From a bacterium (GTDB taxonomy: Bacteria > Patescibacteriota > Microgenomatia > UBA1406 > GWC2-37-13): DNA of 43,669 nt. Both the position numbers and the translations under genes were made by a program. Position 1 is the stretch's first letter. Each line of letters starts with the position of its first letter. Location: NCBI GenBank assembly GCA_027624795.1, contig JAQBTX010000002.1:1-43669 (forward strand), written 5' to 3'. The notes below the pieces were generated by a model. It was given only the letters and a program-made list of their open reading frames with translations, was not told where the DNA came from and did not search any database. This document shows, in pieces, positions 1-32,383 of the stretch.

Positions 1-3000
1 GGTGTTATGGTTGATGCGGTGTAACCTGTTCCGTTTCCGATGAGTAATGCTCCATTTGATGGATTGGTGGTGCCTATTCCTGTTCCTCCTCTTGCAAGTG
101 ACAGTTGACCTGTCCAGCCCAGAGTCCAGCTTCTGTCTGATGTTAAGTCTTGTGCTGCTCCCGAATTGGTAATGGTAACATTGGTATCAGATGTCAAAGT
201 CGAACTTCTATCTGCTCTTACTGCATGTGCTGTTGTGCTAGCTTGGGTGCCTAAACTTAATACTCCGCCTACATACCCTGTGCCAGCAACATTTAGATTA
301 TAAGAGCCTGGATTCGTCGTCCCGATTCCTACATTTCCATTTGCTCCGACATAGAGAGAAGGTATGACATTTGCTGCAGTTCCTCCTATTCCTACATTGT
401 TGCTTGAATCTATGTTAAATGAGATTCCTGTTGTTGCATTATCTACGAGCGTGCCATTTTCTATTCCTGTTCCGGCTGCATTCCAACGTGAAAGATAGTT
501 ATCAGTTCCTGTTCCTGTTACTAGTCCTGCACTTGCATATGATGTCCAGCTGAGTGTTCCACTTCCATTGTTTTGAAGAAGACTGTTTGCTGCTCCTTGT
601 GATGATGGGAATGATGTGGTGACGTTATTTAACTTGACGATGTTACCTGTTGAATCTACCTGAAACTGAGATGATGCTCCGACGGAGAGCATTGAAGCTG
701 GGTTCGTGGTGCCTATTCCTACATTTCCTGCAAATGAGTTGTTTCCGCTTCCTGTTTGAGTAAGAAGTCCTGAGGATAGAGTTAGGTTTCCAGATGTTAC
801 CGTTAGTGCATTACTTGCGGTGAGGAGTCCTCCAAAGGTTCCTGTTGTTGTGAAGTTTGATGCTCCTACGACATTTAACTGGTAGCTTGGATTGGTAGCT
901 CCTATGCCAAGTCCTGCAAAAAGAGGAATTGCTCCGGTGTGTATGTCTTGTGGAGTTGAAAGGGTGATGCTTCCCGATCCATTGGTCACATTTACCTGAT
1001 TGGTGGTACCTGTTAAGTTTGCAACTGTATAACCTGTTCCGTTTCCGATGAGTAATGCTCCATTTGATGGATTGGTGGTGCCTATTCCTGTTCCTCCATT
1101 TCCTACTGGTAAGGTCCCTGTTACGTCTGTTGTTAAGTCTATCTGGTTTAAGGTTATCTGTTGTCCACTTAATGTTAGGTAATCATAACTTCCTGCTAGG
1201 GTTACTGCTGTGTGACTGGTACTTTCTAGTATTGTTATGTCAGCATCCAAATCGTTTAGTACTCCTTGAACCGTTGAACTATTGCTGTTCGCAAATTCGT
1301 CATATGTTCCGATTAAGTAGGCTCCACTTGTTGTTTCATTTGGACCTGTTGAGCCGATACCAATTGAGCCTATTGTTAATCCTGCGAATGTTGGGGAATC
1401 ACTTGTTCCAAGCCCCAAAGATGTTCGAACAGTTGCTCCACTTTCGGTGGTCCATCCACTTCCGGTTCCTACAATAAAGGTGGAGTCTGCTGCTGTTAAT
1501 CCTGCTATTGTTGTTAGGTCTGCATCATATGCTTGTACGTTTGTTCCGATGACTAGTCCTAGTGTTGTTCGTGCAGTAGCCGCATCTGCGTCATCTATAA
1601 GGGTTCTTGCAAAGGAGGTAAGATCAGTAACTGCAGCAGTACCAGATCCAGTAAAGTAAGGAATCTTATCTGCAGCTGAGGTGAGTCCTGCTATGGCTGC
1701 AAGTTCTGCATCATATGCTTGGACACTTACTCCTATGTCTCCACTTGCGAGTATGCTTTCGTTTCCTATGTATAACGTGGTTGATCCTGCTCCGTTACTG
1801 GAGTCATCAATAAGGGAGTTTGAACTATCTGTTCCTATGTGAATACCAGCACTCGTAAGAATGTCTCCTACTACATGAAGGGTGTCTGTGGGGTTGGTGG
1901 TCCCGATGCCGACACGAGAGCTGGCTGTATCTAGACTCAATAGATTGGTTGCAAATGACAGAGCATTTTGTGTACTACTTTTTAAACTCACGTTCGTAGA
2001 TTGTGTAGAAAGATCAAGGGTAGATGCATTGATGTCTATACTTCCCGAACTGGGGGCAAAGGTCATCGTACCATTGCCATCAACGATGAGTTGACCCGCG
2101 TTCACATTGAGGTCGGCGGTTCCGGTGTTTATGACAATATTTTGATTGGCAGCAGAAGTAGTCATAGTCAAAATTCCTCCGGCCGTGAATGTTTGAGCAC
2201 CAGTCGTGTCTACCGTCACACTGGCGCCATCTATATCTACAGCGTCAACCGACGTGATCAGCACGTCGCCTCCCGTGCCGGTCGTTGATATGGTGAGGTC
2301 TTCTGAATCAGATGCGGAGCTTACCGTGAGTGTTGCTCCTTCATCACCGGTGAGGGTGAGTACGTCGCCAACAGCGGTTATGGATGCCGACCCGTTGGTG
2401 GTGGTGAAGGAATAGGTGCCCGTCCCCTCCACGGTCGCGCTATAATTTCCGCCGGATGTCACGGTCGTGGTTCCTTCTGTATCTATCACTAAATTTGAAT
2501 TTGCATCAAGGGTAAGCACCCCGTCGGCTTCAAGTTCTGCTGTAGATGAGAAGTCGCCCAAGAAGGTAGAGCCGATTATACTCGTGGCCACGCCCGCATG
2601 GCCAAGGTCAATGCTTGTGGCGTTAGTTTGTCCAATTTTGAGCGCTCCGGCCCCGGTAGTATCAAGTCCGTATCCGCCTTGTACCGCAATATTCCCCGTG
2701 GTTGCGATAGTTAAATTCCCTCCCGCAAAGCTCGCTGACCCATCGCTATTGATCCATCCGGCGGTGCCGGTATTGGTATTGAGGGTGATGGTGCCGTTGC
2801 CAAACGTGGCGGTGCCCGCAGACAACACGTCGCCATCTTCATCGACGGAAAACACAGAAGTAACCAAGCTGGCACCTCCATAGATATTGATGGCCTTGCC
2901 AGTGGTTATGTCGTCATCATCTACTTTGATCACAAGCGCATCACCCGATGTGAGCGCGTCGGCATTTATCACAAAGCCCGATCCGCTGGTTATAGATGTG

Positions 3001-4985
3001 GTGTTGAGAGTTGCGGCAGTATCTGCAGCGTCAAGCGTGGTGTCTACCACAAATATATCTGCCGTATCTCCATTTTTTCGAATAAGGAATGCTTCGGCGT
3101 TTGTGGCGTCGATTATGTTTGAGCCATCAAATATGGTGATGGTGCCATCATCTCCGACCGTGATATTTCCGTTATCGGCAATGCCTATACGCTCCGTGCC
3201 ATCGGTAAGGCTGAATGTGCCACCCGTTGCATCGTAGGTGATAGTCACTCCGTCTGCTGAGGTCAGAAGCAGATCGCCGGACGTAATAGTTGACACGGTT
3301 AGATTGCCGGACGTGGCAGACACATTTGAGGCACCGGTGCCATCGATGCTAAAACCAGCAGACGTAAGAATATCAAGTGTTGCACTGTCAATATCTATTA
3401 AACCTCCTGCATTGACGATATTGATGTCATTGGTTCCATCTCCATTTAAGGTTAATGCGCCGCTATCGGATGTGATGGTCACTGCCGTGCCCCCGATCGC
3501 AAAGGTGCTATCTGAATCAAGAACCACCGCGCCGGTGGCATCGATGGTATACGCACCAGAATTCATGGTAATTCCGCCGGTATTTGATATGGTGAAAAGG
3601 CCGGCGCCTGGGCCAGTAATGCTATCTGCCGTGCCAATGAATGCCAAGTCGCCCGTTGCGTTAAAACTCGCATAGTTGCTTATCTGACCATCACCAAAAG
3701 AAGAGGTGCCATTGATCGTGAGCTTCGAGTTGGGGTTGGTGGTTCCAATACCCACATTGCCGGTTGCTCCAATAAACAGTCTTTCTGTTCCGGCTGTAAA
3801 GAACCTTAATTGGTCGTTATCTGCACCGGCGCTGTTTTCTGCAATGATGTAGGTGTCTTGATCTACATCAATTAGGCCTCCCAGAGAGCCCCAAGATGCA
3901 GTGGCATACCCTTCAAACTGAGAAGTAGAAGAGTTATAACGAATGGTGCCTGTGGTCGGCGTGGTTGGTCGTTGCGCGGTAGTTCCTGCTGGTATCACGA
4001 GCCCTCCGGTATCATCTATGGTCAGTACTCCTCCTGGAGTTATAGTGGTGAGCCCGGTTATCTTTGTGACGGTTGTCAATGCAGATTTCAGATTGAATTT
4101 TGTTCCAGAAAGTTCAAGATCATTTCCTGCAGTATAGGTGGTGTCAGTATCAGCGGGACTCGTAGATGAGATGGTTATCTCTGAACCAGTTACCGACAAG
4201 CTCGTTGTGCCACCAGCTTTGAAGGTGAGTATATCTCCTACTGAATCAGCCACGATTTCTGTTGTACCAACTTTGATGGTAGAGAACGTTTGAACCGCAC
4301 TCGATATGGTTGGCGTCTGACCTCCGGTGATTATGATGCCTTCTCCTGCAGTAACACTATAAATCACGTTTGCGGCGGTTATACGTCCCTCAGCTAAGTT
4401 CAAATTCTGTCCAGGAGCTTCTATGTCATCTTCAAATATAGAAAGGCCGCGCACATTTAAGGTAGCGATTTCTACGTTTCTATTAAACTGCCATGGTACA
4501 TTCGTAGCTATGAGGCTAGCCAATCTCTTAGATTCTGCTGCAAGGACATCGGTAGCTGGTTTCACATATTTTTGAGCTATGGGACTTTTGTTAAATGCAG
4601 AATTAACCTGAGCTTTCAGATGATTGTGCATACCCATACTTACTGCCCCATAGGCAATTAAGGCTGCGCTGACTAGTATAAAAGCAATATATCCAAATCT
4701 GAAATGACCTACCAACGAATCAATTTCAGATCGGTTGTGCTTTATAGCTTCGGCAGTATAAATCACTTGATTACGCCCCCGTTCCATTTTTTGTTGCGCC
4801 TGAAGGTTCTTATGTCTTATTGCATCGGCCAATTCGCTTCCATTATATTTTCTGTATCCAGATTCTGTGCGAATTGAAGAAATAACCCCTTCTTCTTCCC
4901 ATCGGCGCACGGTAGAAGGCGAAACCCCTACTTTGTCTGCAAATTGTTTCGGCGATAAGGTAAATTTGTTCGTTTGAATGCTCAT
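1..4985 (-). CDS. Giant surface protein, 3'-truncated by the window edge: N-terminal MerR-like HTH, one TM helix, then phage-tail-fibre-like repeats (GIGTTNP)
   Basis: Read on the minus strand from ATG at 4985: [55 protein letters not shown]..., [24 protein letters not shown], then [21 protein letters not shown] and similar repeats. The frame was checked at about 3720, 2400 and 1-60 and is consistent. The ORF track omits it, apparently because it has no stop in the window. Confidence 0.9.
22..89. repeat. 68-bp direct repeat copy 1 inside the giant surface gene
   Basis: taacctgttccgtttccgatgagtaatgctccatttgatggattggtggtgcctattcctgttcctcc, identical to 1030-1097. Confidence 0.95.
1030..1097. 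repeat. 68-bp direct repeat copy 2 inside the giant surface gene
   Basis: Identical to 22-89; encodes [24 protein letters not shown] on the minus strand. Confidence 0.95.
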
Positions 4986-5351
4986 GAAAGTTTGGTATGT
5001 CCTTTCATTAAAGCACATACAAAGATCATTTGTCCAGTGGATTAAGGCTCCAAATAAGGGAGATGGGGATAATATCTTTCTATATATCCTATATTGTTCA
5101 TATTATATGATCTTTATAAAGACTTTTGTGAAAGGGTTTTTAATGTATTTGCTACTTTTTATGCAAATAAATTTAGGATTTTATGCATGGTGCATTAATT
5201 GTTGTCATGAGCCTCTGTAGAGCTCCAAGAAAATCTTTTTTTTGTCAGTTTTTTAATAAAATCTATGAAGAACTTACTATATCCTTTTGGTACAGTCTGA
5301 AGAGAAACAGAAAAATGACGAAAAATTGATCTTTTATTTTTTACTACCTCA

Positions 5352-5415
5352 TGTCATCCTCGCGGACGCGGGGATCCACCATAGAATATGGATTCCCGAT
5401 CAGGTCGGGAATGAC
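5352..5415. repeat. Dispersed palindromic intergenic repeat, short variant
   Basis: gtcatcctcgcggacgcggggatcc...gattcccgatcaggtcgggaatgac; ends are inverted (GTCATYC...GGAATGAC). Confidence 0.75.
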
Positions 5416-5452
5416 AAAGTATGTCGACAAGAGAGCGTCGGGGTATCTCCTT

Positions 5453-5545
5453 GTCATTCTGACCCCGAGCACTCGGGGGAAGAATCCATACCCTTCGTAT
5501 TAACGATACATGGATCCTTCCCCCGCTAAGCGGGGTCAGGATGAC
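5453..5545. repeat. Dispersed palindromic intergenic repeat, long variant
   Basis: gtcattctgaccccgag...gaagaatccat...atacatggatccttcccccgctaagcggggtcaggatgac; inverted ends; strongly similar to 10377-10470. Confidence 0.85.
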
Positions 5546-5710
5546 AGTATTCCTCAGTATGACAATCACGACGCAGTTCCTCCCGTGGTGAAATACACCC
5601 TTTATAAGCGAGAACTATCTAACTTGTTATAGAGCCTCACTAAAGTACATACTAACGTTTTTTTCCTTCATTCTATTACTATAGTATGTATTATAGGACT
5701 AGTAACTTTC

Positions 5711-6505
5711 TTATACCGTAATGATGATATATGCCACCACCACTCCTATCACCACCAGGATCACGGTAAGAACAGAGTTTACTATAATACCGGTCATGAT
5801 AGTGGTGCGCGCCAATGGATTTCTTCCCAGTGCTTCTATTCCCCGAAGGGCAATTCTCCCAAACATATAAAATCCACCAAATACAAATACGAGTAAGATG
5901 ATGGTAGAGAGCGAATATTTGACAAATGAAGATGTATTACTCAGTCCCTGAGGGCCAAACTTCAGCAGATCATTTGCCGTCCGTACAAATTGTTCAATAG
6001 GTCCCAAACTCGGGAGCGCGCGTACATCAATCCGCACTAAAATGGTGCCAACTTCTTCGGGGTCATCAGGCGCATAATCTTCCAATGCAGTGCCTATAAT
6101 CACTCCGCCTGACTTTGCTTTCATGCCTATGCCAGGGGTACTTGAAGAGGTAATAAAATCTCCTTTTGCTATTTCTCCAGACGATGTATTGACCAATACC
6201 AAAAGCTCTCCACTGGTTGCTATTATATGTTGCTCTCTATCTGATTCATCTGGGATTTGCACGACGATATCAGAGGTATCTACTATAACCCCGAGCACAT
6301 TTGCGTCATAGGCCACATCACTTAATCGGAATATATCGACCTGGCGAACTACTATCATGCCAGGACGTATGCTTGAGGGGTCTTCTGCCTGTATATACGC
6401 GGTCTCAGCCGCAGAAAAAGGCAGATATGCGTGTATTTGTTGAGGTGAGACAAGAGAACTTATTACGATGATGCATGTGGCTATTAAAAGTGACATATCT
6501 CTCAT
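5711..6505 (-). CDS. Secreted/membrane protein with Peptidase_G2-like domain and C-terminal TM helices
   Basis: 264 aa; signal-like N-terminus; GELLVLVNTSSGEIAKGDFITSSSTPGIGMKAKSGGVIIGTALEDY matches the C-terminal domain of the 8710-10317 product; C-terminal hydrophobic segments. Confidence 0.7.
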   Translation of the reverse strand: MRDMSLLIATCIIVISSLVSPQQIHAYLPFSAAETAYIQAEDPSSIRPGMIVVRQVDIFRLSDVAYDANVLGVIVDTSDIVVQIPDESDREQHIIATSGELLVLVNTSSGEIAKGDFITSSSTPGIGMKAKSGGVIIGTALEDYAPDDPEEVGTILVRIDVRALPSLGPIEQFVRTANDLLKFGPQGLSNTSSFVKYSLSTIILLVFVFGGFYMFGRIALRGIEALGRNPLARTTIMTGIIVNSVLTVILVVIGVVVAYIIITV

Positions 6506-6561: not shown

Positions 6562-8649
6562 TTATGGCTTCAACTTTGCTCCTGGAGATGCCTGCTCCTC
6601 ATCTAGCTCAATCTTATCATCTAACCGTGCGGGAGGAGGTTTTGGTAAATTTAATTCCTGCTCTGATTGCTGTTCTTGAAGCTGCTCTTGCTGTTCTTGA
6701 AGCTGCTGCTGTAATACAATCTGTTGCTCTTCAAATGCTTCTTTAAAGGTTTTAAGATCTGCCTGTGCTTGCTTAAAGTCTGCTTCTTGAGTAGCGGGAT
6801 CAAGCAAGCTTACCACGATCTGCATTTGGTCAAACGCTGGGCTATACAGTTCTTTTTTATAATACGTCCACGCTAAGTTATAGCGTGCGTTTGGCCAATC
6901 TGACTTCAGAGATACTGCCTGTTCAAATAACTGTTGCGCACTATCATAGTTTTCAAATAGGTAGAACACTCCTCCCAAATCTTGACGCAATATGGGATTT
7001 CTTGGGTCCAGGGCAATTGCTTGCTGATATGTTGACACTGTCCACGTTGGTGCATTTTCAGCTACATTGATAATTTGTCGATATATTCCTGCCAATACTT
7101 CCCAGTTAGCTACTTTATTTGGATTGAGATTTGCTGCAATCTTTGCTTGATCAATGGAGGCTTGGATAGCTTGTGAGATCGTTTGTCTATCTTGATCAGT
7201 GAGATCTTCAGCAGGTATAGAAGCAATATTGTTGGCCAAAATCAGATTCGTTTGAGCAAATTCTCTATGAAAATCTTCACTACTATTGTTAAATTGCAGA
7301 GCTTTTACTTGATTGTCATAGAGCTGTTGCAAGCTGTTTGAACTTATTGCATCTAACGATTTTTTAAAATAGAACTCACTCATAAAGTTTCTTCCCATAA
7401 AGTAGAACGAGCCACCGTACATCAAAGAAAATATCACAATAATGCCTATATATATAGGAACTAACTGTGAAGAAGAAAAGTCAATAATATATTCATCATG
7501 ATGCTTTTTGCCTCGCAAATCAGATGCCATGAGTGCAATACTTACAAAGAACAAGAAAAACGAGATGATTGAAGGAGGTAATAGAATAAGTATTAATACA
7601 GACACGATAAAATATCCGGCATGTTCTAGTTTTACGTTCTTTAACTGACGCATAAATATGCCAATAAGAAGCATATATCCAGTCAATCCAAGTACGCCAA
7701 GTTCAGTAAGAATATGCAATAGTGCCGAACGTGAAGTATTAAATGTATTGATCTGCCATAATTCAGAATTATTGTAACTTGCGGTGCGAACTTGCGTAAA
7801 CATTGAAGCAAAGTTGTCTACCCCTACTCCAAATATGCCTGTCATAGGATTTTTCAAAACTTCCACTGCAGCATGCCACGAAATCATAAGTGGTGGTAAT
7901 ATGATCTGTGCTCCTTCATTCATGATTTGCTGTGCAATCGTAAATATATAGAAAATAAGTGAAATGAGAGTAAAGGTAATAATTGAACCAAGAAGTATCA
8001 TCACAACCTTAGGATCACTGTCATGACTATGGCGGGTATTGTGGGTTCTCCACATGTATAAGCTTGAACCGACAAGTATAAACATGAGAAACGCTACGAA
8101 GTGTATCGATGAACCAACAGTATTAAAGGTGGTACCAGAAAGGAATGACCAATAACTTGGTAAAGTCACACTTTGAAATGGATCTACCATTATGATGAGT
8201 CCAAATACTGCAACGAGTAATCCAGATACCGATATTACTAGAGCAGGTGGTGTTGATACTTTTTCAAACACATGTGAGGCAAAAAAGTACATAATGATCA
8301 TTGCCACAATCATGACTAATCCATATTGAGGATTGTAAAGTGCTTGAAATTTGTTGGGAGACATTAACACTACAGAGAGCGTATATGCAAGAATGATAAG
8401 AATCAGAGATTGTGTTGCAGGATTATGAACCCATCGAAACTTTTTAGATACAATAAAGCCACCAACTGAAGCTCCCAATAATACAAGCATAGCAAACACG
8501 ATAAAGTAAAATTTGCTATAAACCAAAAAGTCTCTCGTAATAGGAAAGAAGATGAGCGGAAGAAGAAAAATAACTCCATACATGAACATTTTCTGAAGTG
8601 ACTGAAAAAGCTTTGCCGGCGATTGAAATTGATCTTGTAAATTATCCAT
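6562..8649 (-). CDS. O-antigen ligase/polymerase-like membrane protein with C-terminal TPR repeats
   Basis: 695 aa; multiple TM segments, then TPR-like AIALDPRNPILRQDLGGVFYLFENYDSAQQLFEQAVSLKSDWPNARYNLAWTYYKKELY; Q-rich C-terminus. Confidence 0.75.
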   Translation of the reverse strand: MDNLQDQFQSPAKLFQSLQKMFMYGVIFLLPLIFFPITRDFLVYSKFYFIVFAMLVLLGASVGGFIVSKKFRWVHNPATQSLILIILAYTLSVVLMSPNKFQALYNPQYGLVMIVAMIIMYFFASHVFEKVSTPPALVISVSGLLVAVFGLIIMVDPFQSVTLPSYWSFLSGTTFNTVGSSIHFVAFLMFILVGSSLYMWRTHNTRHSHDSDPKVVMILLGSIITFTLISLIFYIFTIAQQIMNEGAQIILPPLMISWHAAVEVLKNPMTGIFGVGVDNFASMFTQVRTASYNNSELWQINTFNTSRSALLHILTELGVLGLTGYMLLIGIFMRQLKNVKLEHAGYFIVSVLILILLPPSIISFFLFFVSIALMASDLRGKKHHDEYIIDFSSSQLVPIYIGIIVIFSLMYGGSFYFMGRNFMSEFYFKKSLDAISSNSLQQLYDNQVKALQFNNSSEDFHREFAQTNLILANNIASIPAEDLTDQDRQTISQAIQASIDQAKIAANLNPNKVANWEVLAGIYRQIINVAENAPTWTVSTYQQAIALDPRNPILRQDLGGVFYLFENYDSAQQLFEQAVSLKSDWPNARYNLAWTYYKKELYSPAFDQMQIVVSLLDPATQEADFKQAQADLKTFKEAFEEQQIVLQQQLQEQQEQLQEQQSEQELNLPKPPPARLDDKIELDEEQASPGAKLKP

Positions 8650-8709: not shown

Positions 8710-10317
8710 CTATCTTGTCACATCAAGCAATATACGTATTTTTCCACATGCTGTGTCACGTTGCTCGTCGTCTTCGCTTATATAATACATATGAGGACAG
8801 ACATCTTGAATTGATGTATTTTTATCAAAATCCTCAAGTGCAATTCCAATCGTATCAAATTCAGCCGATAATTCTTTTGCTCCATAACCAGGGATGAAAC
8901 TTGCAGAAATGACATCTCCTTTTTTTATTGATCCGTTTTCTGTAGAAACAAGCACCGTGACTTGACCCATGAGTCCGACAAGAATAGATGATTCACGTTC
9001 GTGATCATTTGAGTTCCCTACAAATCCCGGCGTGTCGGTAGTCACCCCAACAAGTCGATCCTCTCTCGTTGCCGGAACAATACCGTCCGTATTTATTCCA
9101 ACGATCATATGCGTGATAAACAAATCTCGATGCTCTGTTTCAAAATATTCTGCAAAATCTGCTCCTTTCGTTTCATACACCACCCCACCATTCCCCAAAC
9201 GTATTCTCCCCACATTAACTCCTGGGTCATCCCTACTTGCCTCAGCATTAAAATTTACGAACGTTGCATTTATTCCATCTTTGAGTGCACCAACAGACAA
9301 ATCAACTACAGATGAAGAGCGTACATCTTCTGGTGACAGATTAACTACGGACATAATTGATTCATAGGGCTCAATGCCTAAAACAGAGAATTTATGTTGT
9401 GGCTCCAAGATCCCTAACCCTACTTTCCCACTGGTAAAGAGTGTGTTTGCACCTATTGCAGGTTGAATCATTATATCTCCTCCTTGTTCAAGAGTAGTTT
9501 TTATTAATAATTTCTGACCTTCAAAAGTAAATAATCCGTTCGTACTCAATAGTTTAGGATTGCTCTCAGTAAGCTCTAATATATTAGACGCATTGATAAA
9601 TGGTATACTTCCAGCAACTGAACCTAATGATAGATTTTGTAGCATTGATGCATTTTCACCGGACTTTCCCGTAGAAACATGCGTTCTGGGCACAATCTCA
9701 GCTTCATCTCCTATTTGTACTCCCAGAAATAAAACGTCATGAGTATCAATAATGTCTTGAGAAATTGGACTCATACCACAATCTGATCCAAGTACAATGG
9801 TAAAAGACCCATCAACTTCTGGAGTTAAACCTTGCTCACCAATACATTCCCCACTATATACTGGTTGCCCCCCCTCTTCTTTTGGATACAAACGGAATAG
9901 TACATCACGCTTATCAGTAATGGGTATACCATCTATATCCTTAAGCACTCCATTAAAGGGTAATAATATGGGTGGTGATTTTTCACTGGTAATAGTATTT
10001 GAATTAAACGCATCCGAAAGACTAAAATAGAAGGAAATGAAAGAAATAATTAAGGCAAGGATTGAAATCCCAACAACAAAATTGCGATTAGATGATTGAC
10101 TGATATTTGATGACTTCAATACATTTGACACCTTACTTTGTAACATATTACGAGCTAAATGGTAATCAGATAAGCTTATTGAGTTATTTACCTTATGCCA
10201 GTCAAGCCAGTTAAATACTGATTTTAACTTCAGAGATTGTTTTGTCGTATCTAATTCATGAATAATCTCATCTATGTACTTATTTAAAGTAGATTGAGAG
10301 AAAAAAGTTTTTTTCAT
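8710..10317 (-). CDS. Membrane-anchored surface protein with tail-fibre-like region and C-terminal Peptidase_G2-like domain
   Basis: 535 aa; TM NFVVGISILALIISFISFYFSL; GKVGLGILEPQHKFSVLG (tail-fibre-like); GADFAEYFETEH...LVGVTTDT...GSIKKGDVISASFIPGYGAK...IGIALEDFD. Confidence 0.7.
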   Translation of the reverse strand: MKKTFFSQSTLNKYIDEIIHELDTTKQSLKLKSVFNWLDWHKVNNSISLSDYHLARNMLQSKVSNVLKSSNISQSSNRNFVVGISILALIISFISFYFSLSDAFNSNTITSEKSPPILLPFNGVLKDIDGIPITDKRDVLFRLYPKEEGGQPVYSGECIGEQGLTPEVDGSFTIVLGSDCGMSPISQDIIDTHDVLFLGVQIGDEAEIVPRTHVSTGKSGENASMLQNLSLGSVAGSIPFINASNILELTESNPKLLSTNGLFTFEGQKLLIKTTLEQGGDIMIQPAIGANTLFTSGKVGLGILEPQHKFSVLGIEPYESIMSVVNLSPEDVRSSSVVDLSVGALKDGINATFVNFNAEASRDDPGVNVGRIRLGNGGVVYETKGADFAEYFETEHRDLFITHMIVGINTDGIVPATREDRLVGVTTDTPGFVGNSNDHERESSILVGLMGQVTVLVSTENGSIKKGDVISASFIPGYGAKELSAEFDTIGIALEDFDKNTSIQDVCPHMYYISEDDEQRDTACGKIRILLDVTR

Positions 10318-10376: not shown

Positions 10377-10470
10377 GTCATTCTGAGTAGGAGTGAAAAC
10401 GACGACCGAAGAATCCATGTTCCGACAATACATGGATCCTTCTCCCGACGAATGTCGGGGTCAGGATGAC
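10377..10470. repeat. Dispersed palindromic intergenic repeat, long variant
   Basis: gtcattctgagtagg...gaagaatccatg...aatacatggatccttctcccgacgaatgtcggggtcaggatgac; shares blocks with 5453-5545. Confidence 0.85.
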
Positions 10471-31287: not shown

Positions 31288-32383
31288 GGCATAATAGTCA
31301 AAATGTGTGGTATTTTTGATTTTATTTTAACTTCAGATAGAAGTACCAATTAATAAAATTAATCTTCCTTTTTCTGGTTAATCCTTTATGAACTGCAAGC
31401 TTCTGTTTTAGGTGTTTAAACTCTGCTTCAAGTCCGTTTGTATCTTTACAAAGTTGAGGATAATCTAGGTAAAGAAATAGGTTATTTAAAGACATTTTTA
31501 ATGCTCTAAACGATCTCCTTACATTTTTATGAGTGTACCACCAGTGTTTGCAATCAACAGCGTAGGATCTTTCATTTAATTGGTCTTTGTGTTTTTCTTC
31601 AAATCTTTGTAACCAGCGTACCCAAATTGTCTTTTCATTTCTCGTTTTAACCTGATTTAAAAACTTCACAATTTCTAAAAGTTGTATTCCTGCCTCAGTC
31701 TCTGGATATTGTGTTAAATACGTCTGACAGAACCTTTGAGTATGTATCAAACATCTCTGATGAGGAATGTCAGGATACCTGTTTTTTGAGGCTGAAGTGA
31801 TGCTTCCATGCCAGTCACTGGTTATTCCAATCACCTTGTATCCAAGTTTATGTAACCTTGAGAAATTATCAAGATAACTAAAGTAACTTTCCCTCTGTAC
31901 AAAATCCCACAAGATAATATTTTGTTTTTCTTTAAATACTAAAACACAACCCCATCGACCAAAATATGTACCATCAACTTTTAGATATATTTCTTTACTG
32001 TTACTTAGTGGTTTTAATGTAAAAGTTTTATCCAAGAATGTATCAAAATGTCGTCTTAACGTACTTGGATATACTTTTACACCTCTGAATTTACTTAACG
32101 ATTCAATCGTTACGCTAGTTAAGATCCAGGACTTAAACAGACTGAAATAGCGGTTTGATTTTATCCTCTTTCTTGGAGTAAATGTCTTTCTGCATGTTAA
32201 GCATTTGAAGCGAAGTGTTCCTGACTTTGATCTTCCGTGACTTACTAACTTTTGACTACAAACTGGACAGTGAAATCGATACCTTTTTTAAAATTTGAAA
32301 TGTTCATATTTGAATTGTACAGGTTCAGCGCGTATTTACAAGCTATATCTCTGATTTATACCACACTTATTGAGTATTGTGCC
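31288..32383. mobile_element. IS256-like (variant zinc-ribbon) insertion element with about 26-bp imperfect terminal inverted repeats
   Basis: ggcataatagtcaaaatgtgtggtat at 31288-31313 versus reverse complement of 32358-32383 ggcacaatactcaataagtgtggtat (22/26 match), flanking a DDE transposase; no target-site duplication seen. Confidence 0.7.
31322..32307 (-). CDS. Transposase (IS256/Mutator-like with N-terminal zinc ribbon), split by an apparent -1 frameshift at an A6 run
   Basis: Main ORF 31322-32035 (...LKVDGTYFGRWGCVLVFKE..., PHQRCLIHTQR). Upstream in the same frame: KRYRFHCPVCSQKLVSHGRSKSGTLRFKCLTCRKTFTPRKRIKSNRYFSLFKSW. The ATG at 32307 (MNISNFKK) joins by -1 shift at 32284-32289. Confidence 0.7.

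Follow-up and report, generated by a model that had tools for sequence, protein, structure and literature searches.

The DNA considered here (the window) is a stretch of 43,669 nucleotides from a bacterium of the Patescibacteria, class Microgenomatia, and its first five kilobases carry a gene for a giant fibre-like protein. Sequence comparisons make it moderately probable that this protein is a membrane-anchored, autoregulatory fibre with a BldC-type helix-turn-helix (HTH) domain, serving an ATP-driven F1 machine that does not pump ions. Strong support exists for the conservation of the locus, which unites the fibre gene, a gene for a c subunit fused to an ectodomain (fused c) and a second set of F1 genes (F1-2). 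The original prediction described the fibre and overlooked the neighbouring gene and the remainder of the locus, by which the fibre is linked to a second F1-type ATPase whose c subunit is fused to an ectodomain. The material consists of metagenome-assembled genome (MAG) data, including truncated contigs.

The fibre gene and its DNA-binding domain

The frame runs without a stop from position 4985 down to the start of the window, as originally described, and specifies 1661–1672 amino acids depending on the start. Given that the window is the entire contig C15 of genome G000 (1.07 Mb, 80 contigs), the gene is truncated at base 1. An alternative upstream ATG lies at 5018; the ATG at 4985 is the more likely start because the promoter-like hexamer pair listed in Table 1 overlaps 5018. 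Counted from MSIQ..., residues ~97–118 form the sole hydrophobic segment of the protein, which places the single transmembrane (TM) helix where it had been expected, about 100 residues in. The long low-complexity region that follows was also correctly recognized as fibre-like: serine, threonine, asparagine and glycine make up about 38–56% of each 100 residues, cysteine is absent, and seven G-I-G-[TA]-T-N-P motifs were counted. The window gene lacks its 3' end; in their C-terminal part, complete relatives have candidates for the intramolecular chaperone domain of phage tail fibres, either Peptidase_S74 (L162, L161) or a fused-c/gp12-like domain (L135, L188).

The order of HTH, TM helix and fibre in one frame recurs in three genomes of the same genus (G004, G005 and G006) and in 37 aligned proteins, and a search across relatives for this architecture found it in at least 40 members of Microgenomates and WWE3. 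A chimeric assembly, or a chance frame joining unrelated HTH and fibre genes, might be suspected from the truncation at the contig end and from the MAG origin of the data. However, the same fusion is present in genomes of the same genus and in many different families, which argues against an assembly artefact, and this explanation was rejected as having practically no chance of being correct. Neither a join nor a frameshift was found between the HTH/TM part and the repeat, and the in-frame order is kept in relatives; the fibre genes of G004 and G006 shift frame further along, among the repeats, following ~980 and ~1200 amino acids, respectively. The predicted cytoplasmic position of the HTH agrees with the charge rule, as the stretch leading into the TM helix holds twice as many lysines and arginines as the one that follows it (86 vs 42 in the 15 flanking residues, summed over the 37 proteins).

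The MerR-type identity of the N-terminal domain was confirmed by Pfam, which matched residues ~10–60 to MerR (PF00376) with E=1.9e-12 and a score of 47.2 bits, the cut-off being 28.2; PF13411 also scored above its cut-off (32.9 vs 21.6 bits). The BldC subfamily model NF033787 of NCBIfam remained below its cut-off (34.6 vs 77 bits), and the domain is thus BldC-like by sequence and not BldC itself. The Pfam search of the window protein returned MerR-type and generic HTH families only, with no OmpR-type (Trans_reg_C) match and no match to the RodZ-type HTH_25. The closest solved structures by sequence are the BldC–DNA complexes 6amk and 6ama (E=3e-5). An AlphaFold model of the domain reached a predicted local distance difference test (pLDDT) score of ~97, and its Foldseek matches comprised SoxR, BldC–DNA, HiNmlR and RacA, with a TMt of ~0.7 and a root-mean-square deviation (rmsd) of 1.2 against BldC.

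The positions expected to contact DNA are nearly invariant. S22, R28, R45 and Y/F47 occur in 37/37 aligned fibre proteins, R27 in 36/37 and R39 in 35/37; unlike the invariant R28 and R45, the linker between the HTH and the TM helix varies freely. R28 corresponds to BldC Arg30, which contacts a guanine and whose replacement (R30A) abolishes binding, and R45 corresponds to the wing residue Arg47, which sits with Arg48 in the minor groove (PMC5859096). BldC itself occupies direct repeats of 9 bp in a head-to-tail arrangement (PMC5859096). The conservation pattern strongly suggests that the fibre HTH is functional as a DNA-binding domain. Moreover, other giant fibres of these genomes carry a Phage_int_SAM domain ahead of the TM helix (L120, 3.8e-10; L122, 1e-5; L124, weaker), as does the SAM-TM protein L097:919-1956 (1.3e-9). 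That two unrelated DNA-binding domains, the MerR-type HTH and the integrase SAM, stand at the same place argues that DNA contact is the point.

Several variants of this layout were observed. Fibre N-termini with Phage_int_SAM, a tyrosine-recombinase DNA-binding domain, in place of the MerR HTH were noted in L118, L120, L122, L124 and L126. Proteins from G157, G124, G117, G074, G135, G075 and G089 contain a tandem pair of HTH copies in one frame, which would fit direct-repeat operators. The HTH-fibre L022:1-2484 includes a splicing domain of an intein (Pfam E=1e-22), and visual inspection showed intein/Hint-like stretches in two more fibres, L121 and L127. A further membrane-bound HTH layout, L113:6845-8779, combines HTH_17 with several TM helices and a dCache sensor.

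The fused c subunit and a second F1 operon

The gene directly next to the fibre gene encodes the fused c. The profile of its C-terminal part matches the canonical F-type c genes of 75–90 amino acids in the same genomes, and among solved structures its sequence matches c subunits only (E 0.005–0.1). In the structural model (pLDDT 91), the hairpin superposes on c subunits with a TMt of up to 0.86 and an rmsd of 1.4 (Foldseek). By fold, the ectodomain is similar to capsid decoration proteins of phages and to a C-terminal fragment of phi29 gp12 (Foldseek E 1.8e-4 to 1e-3), and it shares homology with domains located close to the C-terminal ends of giant fibres. Acidic residues are absent from both helices in all 69 fused-c proteins, whereas the canonical c genes compared have AFAE; ion translocation by a ring of fused c is therefore not expected.

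Genome G000 encodes a canonical ATP synthase on contig C3 and, on C20, a second, divergent operon consisting of b, delta, alpha, gamma, beta and epsilon, without a and c. Just upstream of b2 on C20, at the position of fused c in other genomes, lies a gene for a 214-aa protein with six TM helices and no Pfam match (L033:10794-11438). Among 57 genomes, a second gamma was present in 13/13 with fused c and in 3/44 without it (p 2e-10). All 13 fused-c genomes have one subunit a (PF00119) each, located in the canonical operon. An apparently complete extra synthase was also observed, in a second operon that includes its own subunit a and has no fused c (G028:C1:2217-7376, L103).

A scan of GTDB genomes extended the collection to 80 fused-c loci, which belong to Roizman-, Levy-, Woese-, Davies-, Shapiro-, Ames- and Collierbacteria, WWE3, some Sungbacteria/Parcubacteria and one record labelled Saccharibacteria; the same-genus loci L131–L133 are labelled Candidatus Roizmanbacteria. 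F1-2 genes adjoin fused c in 72 of the 80 loci, usually in the order c-b-delta-alpha-gamma-beta-epsilon, and a fibre-like gene lies within the examined stretch in 58. HTH proteins were found in 41 of the 80 loci: 40 have a TM helix, 38 are accompanied by F1-2 genes, and 19 are directly divergent from fused c. Among 137 genomes sampled at class level, 15/15 best HTH matches, and 21 of the 33 strongest matches tabulated, lay within 10 kb of fused c, a count that is biased towards such loci because the alignment used was built from them.

The catalytic motifs of F1-2 are preserved, with the Walker A and catalytic Glu of beta2 intact in 67/67 and the Arg finger of alpha2 in 72/72. These data bear on whether the complex of F1-2 and fused c turns an extracellular structure or is instead a device for fibre secretion or folding, or an immobile scaffold. 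F1-like ATPases also drive export and other force-generating machines (in part PMC8406192), and the ectodomain of fused c shares homology with assembly domains found close to the C-terminal ends of fibres. Nevertheless, the retention of the rotor shaft and stator (gamma2, delta2, epsilon2 and b2) along with the catalytic motifs suggests rotary catalysis, and a secretion device or scaffold appears somewhat unlikely.

Candidate operators at fibre promoters

For fibres whose recognition helix is of the KTLRR type, a Gibbs search of the upstream regions yielded TGTCCAAGTTTT, with an information content of 13.1 bits vs 8.8–9.1 in shuffles. The motif TGTCCAAGT is 48-fold enriched upstream of KTLRR-type fibres, which belong to the Levybacteria lineage, with up to five copies per promoter and a commonest same-strand spacing of 10 bp. 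Its complement, AACTTGGACA, is similar to the AATTCGGACA of BldC. Upstream of DTLRR-type fibres, which belong to the Daviesbacteria lineage, AATCTATGYA is 47-fold enriched, and several of these promoters place a tandem pair of it between the -35 TTGACA and the -10 box.

Given that both motifs had been discovered on the original sequences, they were retested unchanged on 14 new loci, for which sampling every 500 bases found no 60-mers in common with the old loci. TGTCCAAGT occurred in 7/7 new KTLRR loci (ratio 26, p 9e-14) and AATCTATGYA in 4/4 new DTLRR loci (ratio 52, p 4e-16), whereas swapping the motifs gave 0/4 and 0/7. These counts strongly suggest that, in two lineages, the promoter of the fibre bears repeats matched to the recognition-helix type of the fibre itself. 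The match is strong, yet it is not evidence of binding, because helix type is confounded with lineage. Together with the invariant contact residues, the helix-matched repeats at the fibre promoters of relatives lend independent support to the DNA binding that had been proposed for the MerR-type HTH.

The candidate promoter of the window's fibre contains a single TGTCCAGTG at 5031, shared by three same-genus loci as TGTC[CA]AGTG (Gibbs search). This motif is ambiguous as an operator because it coincides with the probable -35 box. For the WWE3 lineage, a palindrome-like TTTGATAAGG near the start was weakly supported and is not claimed as an operator.

RodZ, which joins an HTH to a TM helix and a periplasmic domain and binds MreB, is a precedent for a repurposed domain. 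By analogy, the fibre HTH might be a structural or protein-binding plug that docks the fibre to F1-2 or the cytoskeleton without binding DNA, and some F1-2-linked fibres indeed have no HTH at all. RodZ shares with the fibre the arrangement of HTH, TM helix and extracytoplasmic domain; it differs in its HTH family, in the binding of MreB by its HTH and in having no fibre. However, exposed DNA-contact arginines are invariant in 37 divergent proteins with a freely variable linker, promoter repeats match the recognition-helix type out of sample, and other giant fibres bear the integrase SAM, a different type of DNA-binding domain, at the same place. A purely structural HTH is thereby weakened and seems quite unlikely.

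Alternatively, the operators could serve a separate small BldC-like protein, the fibre HTH being a bystander copy. A stand-alone BldC-like HTH gene of 72–92 amino acids was indeed observed after epsilon2 in eight loci (for example, L135:16170-16400, L138:16023-16241, L144:12987-13205 and L162:17808-18068). However, the loci richest in repeats (L142, L146, L147 and L153) and the Daviesbacteria loci show no small HTH gene in the stretch examined, and motif type tracks the recognition helix of the fibre itself, which leaves this explanation very doubtful. In Levybacteria, a gene for a Fic/DOC protein with a C-terminal DeoR-type HTH was also observed between the HTH-fibre and fused-c genes (L142:4607-5560, L147:3040-3975 and L153:2612-3553).

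As a further alternative, the fibre might act as a one-component sensor of the ToxR/CadC kind, in which contact, load or stalling at the fibre would alter HTH oligomerization and switch transcription of fibre and motor. The candidate operators lie between divergent fibre and fused-c genes, and the Davies-type repeats occupy the -35/-10 spacer, where MerR activators classically bind. The topology is that of CadC, which clusters on DNA once activated (PMC6320335). However, neither a sensor domain nor a signal was identified, and constitutive autoregulation or gene tethering predicts an identical sequence pattern; a sensing role is therefore rated as unlikely.

Several observations weigh against an autoregulatory fibre that serves the F1 machine. 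Fused c and the F1-2 operon lie on different contigs in G000, and several F1-2-linked fibres lack the HTH, which is thus not essential to the motor. The matching of motif and helix tracks lineage, and common ancestry of the promoters contributes to it. An unbiased count of direct repeats upstream of HTH fibres gave just a modest excess over other promoters (p=0.015), restricted to a subset of loci, and the operator claim consequently rests on the two motif-specific out-of-sample tests. The genus of the window shows one motif copy alone, inside the probable -35 box, and the small stand-alone HTH gene of some Levybacteria loci is a possible owner of the sites.

Proposed machine, comparison with known systems and other features

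In the mechanism that we favour, the F1-2 head (alpha2, beta2, gamma2, delta2 and epsilon2) and the peripheral stalk b2 would lie in the cytoplasm, and the rotor ring would be built of fused c (window 5711–6505), each subunit with an extracellular domain. Since such a ring could not bind ions and no subunit a is available for it, ATP hydrolysis should work mechanically on the extracellular part rather than pump ions, and F1-2 would turn the decorated c-ring. The fibre HTH would bind repeated operators at its own promoter, often facing the fused-c operon. Such binding may set the amount of fibre, or of fibre and motor, by repressing or tuning the fibre gene itself as well as, at loci where the two are divergent, fused c, and it would tether the fibre gene to the membrane. 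The fibre and the ring may interact, perhaps via their homologous extracellular domains. More tentatively, and with less than even confidence, we propose an undescribed rotary machine of Patescibacteria in which an ATP-driven F1 turns a c-ring with extracellular phage-decoration-like domains beside a giant trimeric fibre that grips its own promoter, so that there would be a physical coupling between motor/fibre assembly, copy number and where the gene lies at the membrane.

The fibre HTH shares with BldC of Streptomyces (PDB 6ama/6amk; PMC5859096) the winged HTH fold, the key DNA-contact residues, the lack of a MerR dimerization coil and, in two lineages, apparent reliance on tandem direct repeats of similar sequence (9 bp for BldC, mostly 10 bp here). 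However, BldC is a soluble protein of 68 residues, whereas the domain here is the N-terminus of a membrane fibre of more than 1,000 residues. The original prediction knew of no characterized system with this architecture. For the bare layout this does not hold, as ToxR and CadC share it (PMC6320335), with an N-terminal DNA-binding domain inside, one TM helix and a C-terminal ectodomain outside (predicted here); the differences lie in the BldC-type domain, in the size of the fibre and in the motor. ToxR and CadC have an OmpR-type winged HTH and a compact sensor domain, whereas the fibre has a MerR-type HTH and a giant phage-fibre-like ectodomain and is linked to an ATPase.

With F-type ATP synthases, the system has in common the alpha, beta, gamma, delta, epsilon and b genes in an operon, the c hairpin with its GRNP loop and the intact catalytic residues. 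It differs in lacking subunit a and the c carboxylate and in placing an extracellular domain on every c, with a separate canonical synthase in the same genome. Fibres and the fused-c ectodomain carry domains of phage tail fibres and decoration proteins (Peptidase_S74 or phi29 gp12-like), but here they are membrane-anchored and outside a phage context. The F1-like ATPases of Mycoplasma (the gliding motor and the MIB-MIP-associated type; PMC8406192, PMC11864180) also have an F1 core apparently used for surface-linked mechanical work beside a canonical synthase, whereas the patescibacterial system retains a modified c together with the usual stalk subunits and is accompanied by HTH/fibre genes. 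The combination of fibre and second F1 was not found described in open-access PubMed Central text, the searchable part of the literature. Taken singly, each part has a known look-alike (BldC, CadC-type topology, F1 and phage fibres).

Patescibacteria are largely uncultured, and little is known of how they attach to other cells or move on them. A conserved fibre locus with a dedicated ATP-driven motor would be a candidate machine for either activity. If the proposal is correct, a c-ring minus ion binding plus an outward domain would be a further non-bioenergetic use of F-type ATPases beside the Mycoplasma machines, and a fibre apparently binding its own promoter would be an unusual membrane-tethered autoregulator with an operator code.

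Table 1. Coordinates of the locus features in the window
Feature	Position	Strand	Basis or remark
HTH-TM-giant fibre gene	3..4985	-	Uninterrupted frame; 1661 aa present; 3' end missing at contig end
BldC/MerR-type winged HTH, predicted cytoplasmic	4803..4955	-	Pfam; BldC sequence and fold matches; model
Single TM helix	4632..4697	-	Hydropathy maximum 2.1; helix 96–127 in structure model
Low-complexity fibre-like ectodomain with GIGTTNP repeats	3..4631	-	Composition; C-terminal domains of relatives
Candidate fibre promoter	5007..5039	-	TGGACA 5031–5036, TTTAAT 5007–5012, 18-bp spacer
Fused c: signal peptide, ectodomain and F-type c hairpin without ion-binding carboxylate	5711..6505	-	264 aa
Fused-c ectodomain, residues 32–163	6017..6412	-	Phage decoration/phi29 gp12 C-terminal-like fold; pLDDT mostly >90
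c-type hairpin with GRNPLA loop, residues 193–263	5717..5929	-	Foldseek and profile matches
Polytopic membrane protein with tetratricopeptide repeat (TPR) tail (O-antigen ligase-like layout)	6562..8649	-	Same-direction neighbour
535-aa single-TM protein with Peptidase_G2-like domain, first gene of cluster	8710..10317	-	Pfam PF11962, 3.5e-9

The remaining genes of the cluster are also conserved. The Peptidase_G2-like protein, for which Pfam gave no integrase-SAM match, occurs in G004, G006 and G036. The polytopic TPR protein, which may have a role in glycosylation, is conserved in G004 and G006 and adjoins the F1-2 operon in G036. Gene order in G004 and G006 is that of the window (Peptidase_G2-like, polytopic TPR, fused c and HTH-fibre), the G005 contig being partial. 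Additionally, GC-rich inverted repeats at 5350–5560 and 10400–10445 (GTCATTCTGACCCCG... and GAAGAATCCATG...) resemble dispersed elements of the repetitive extragenic palindromic (REP) type, and a transposase-like open reading frame lies at 31322–32035.

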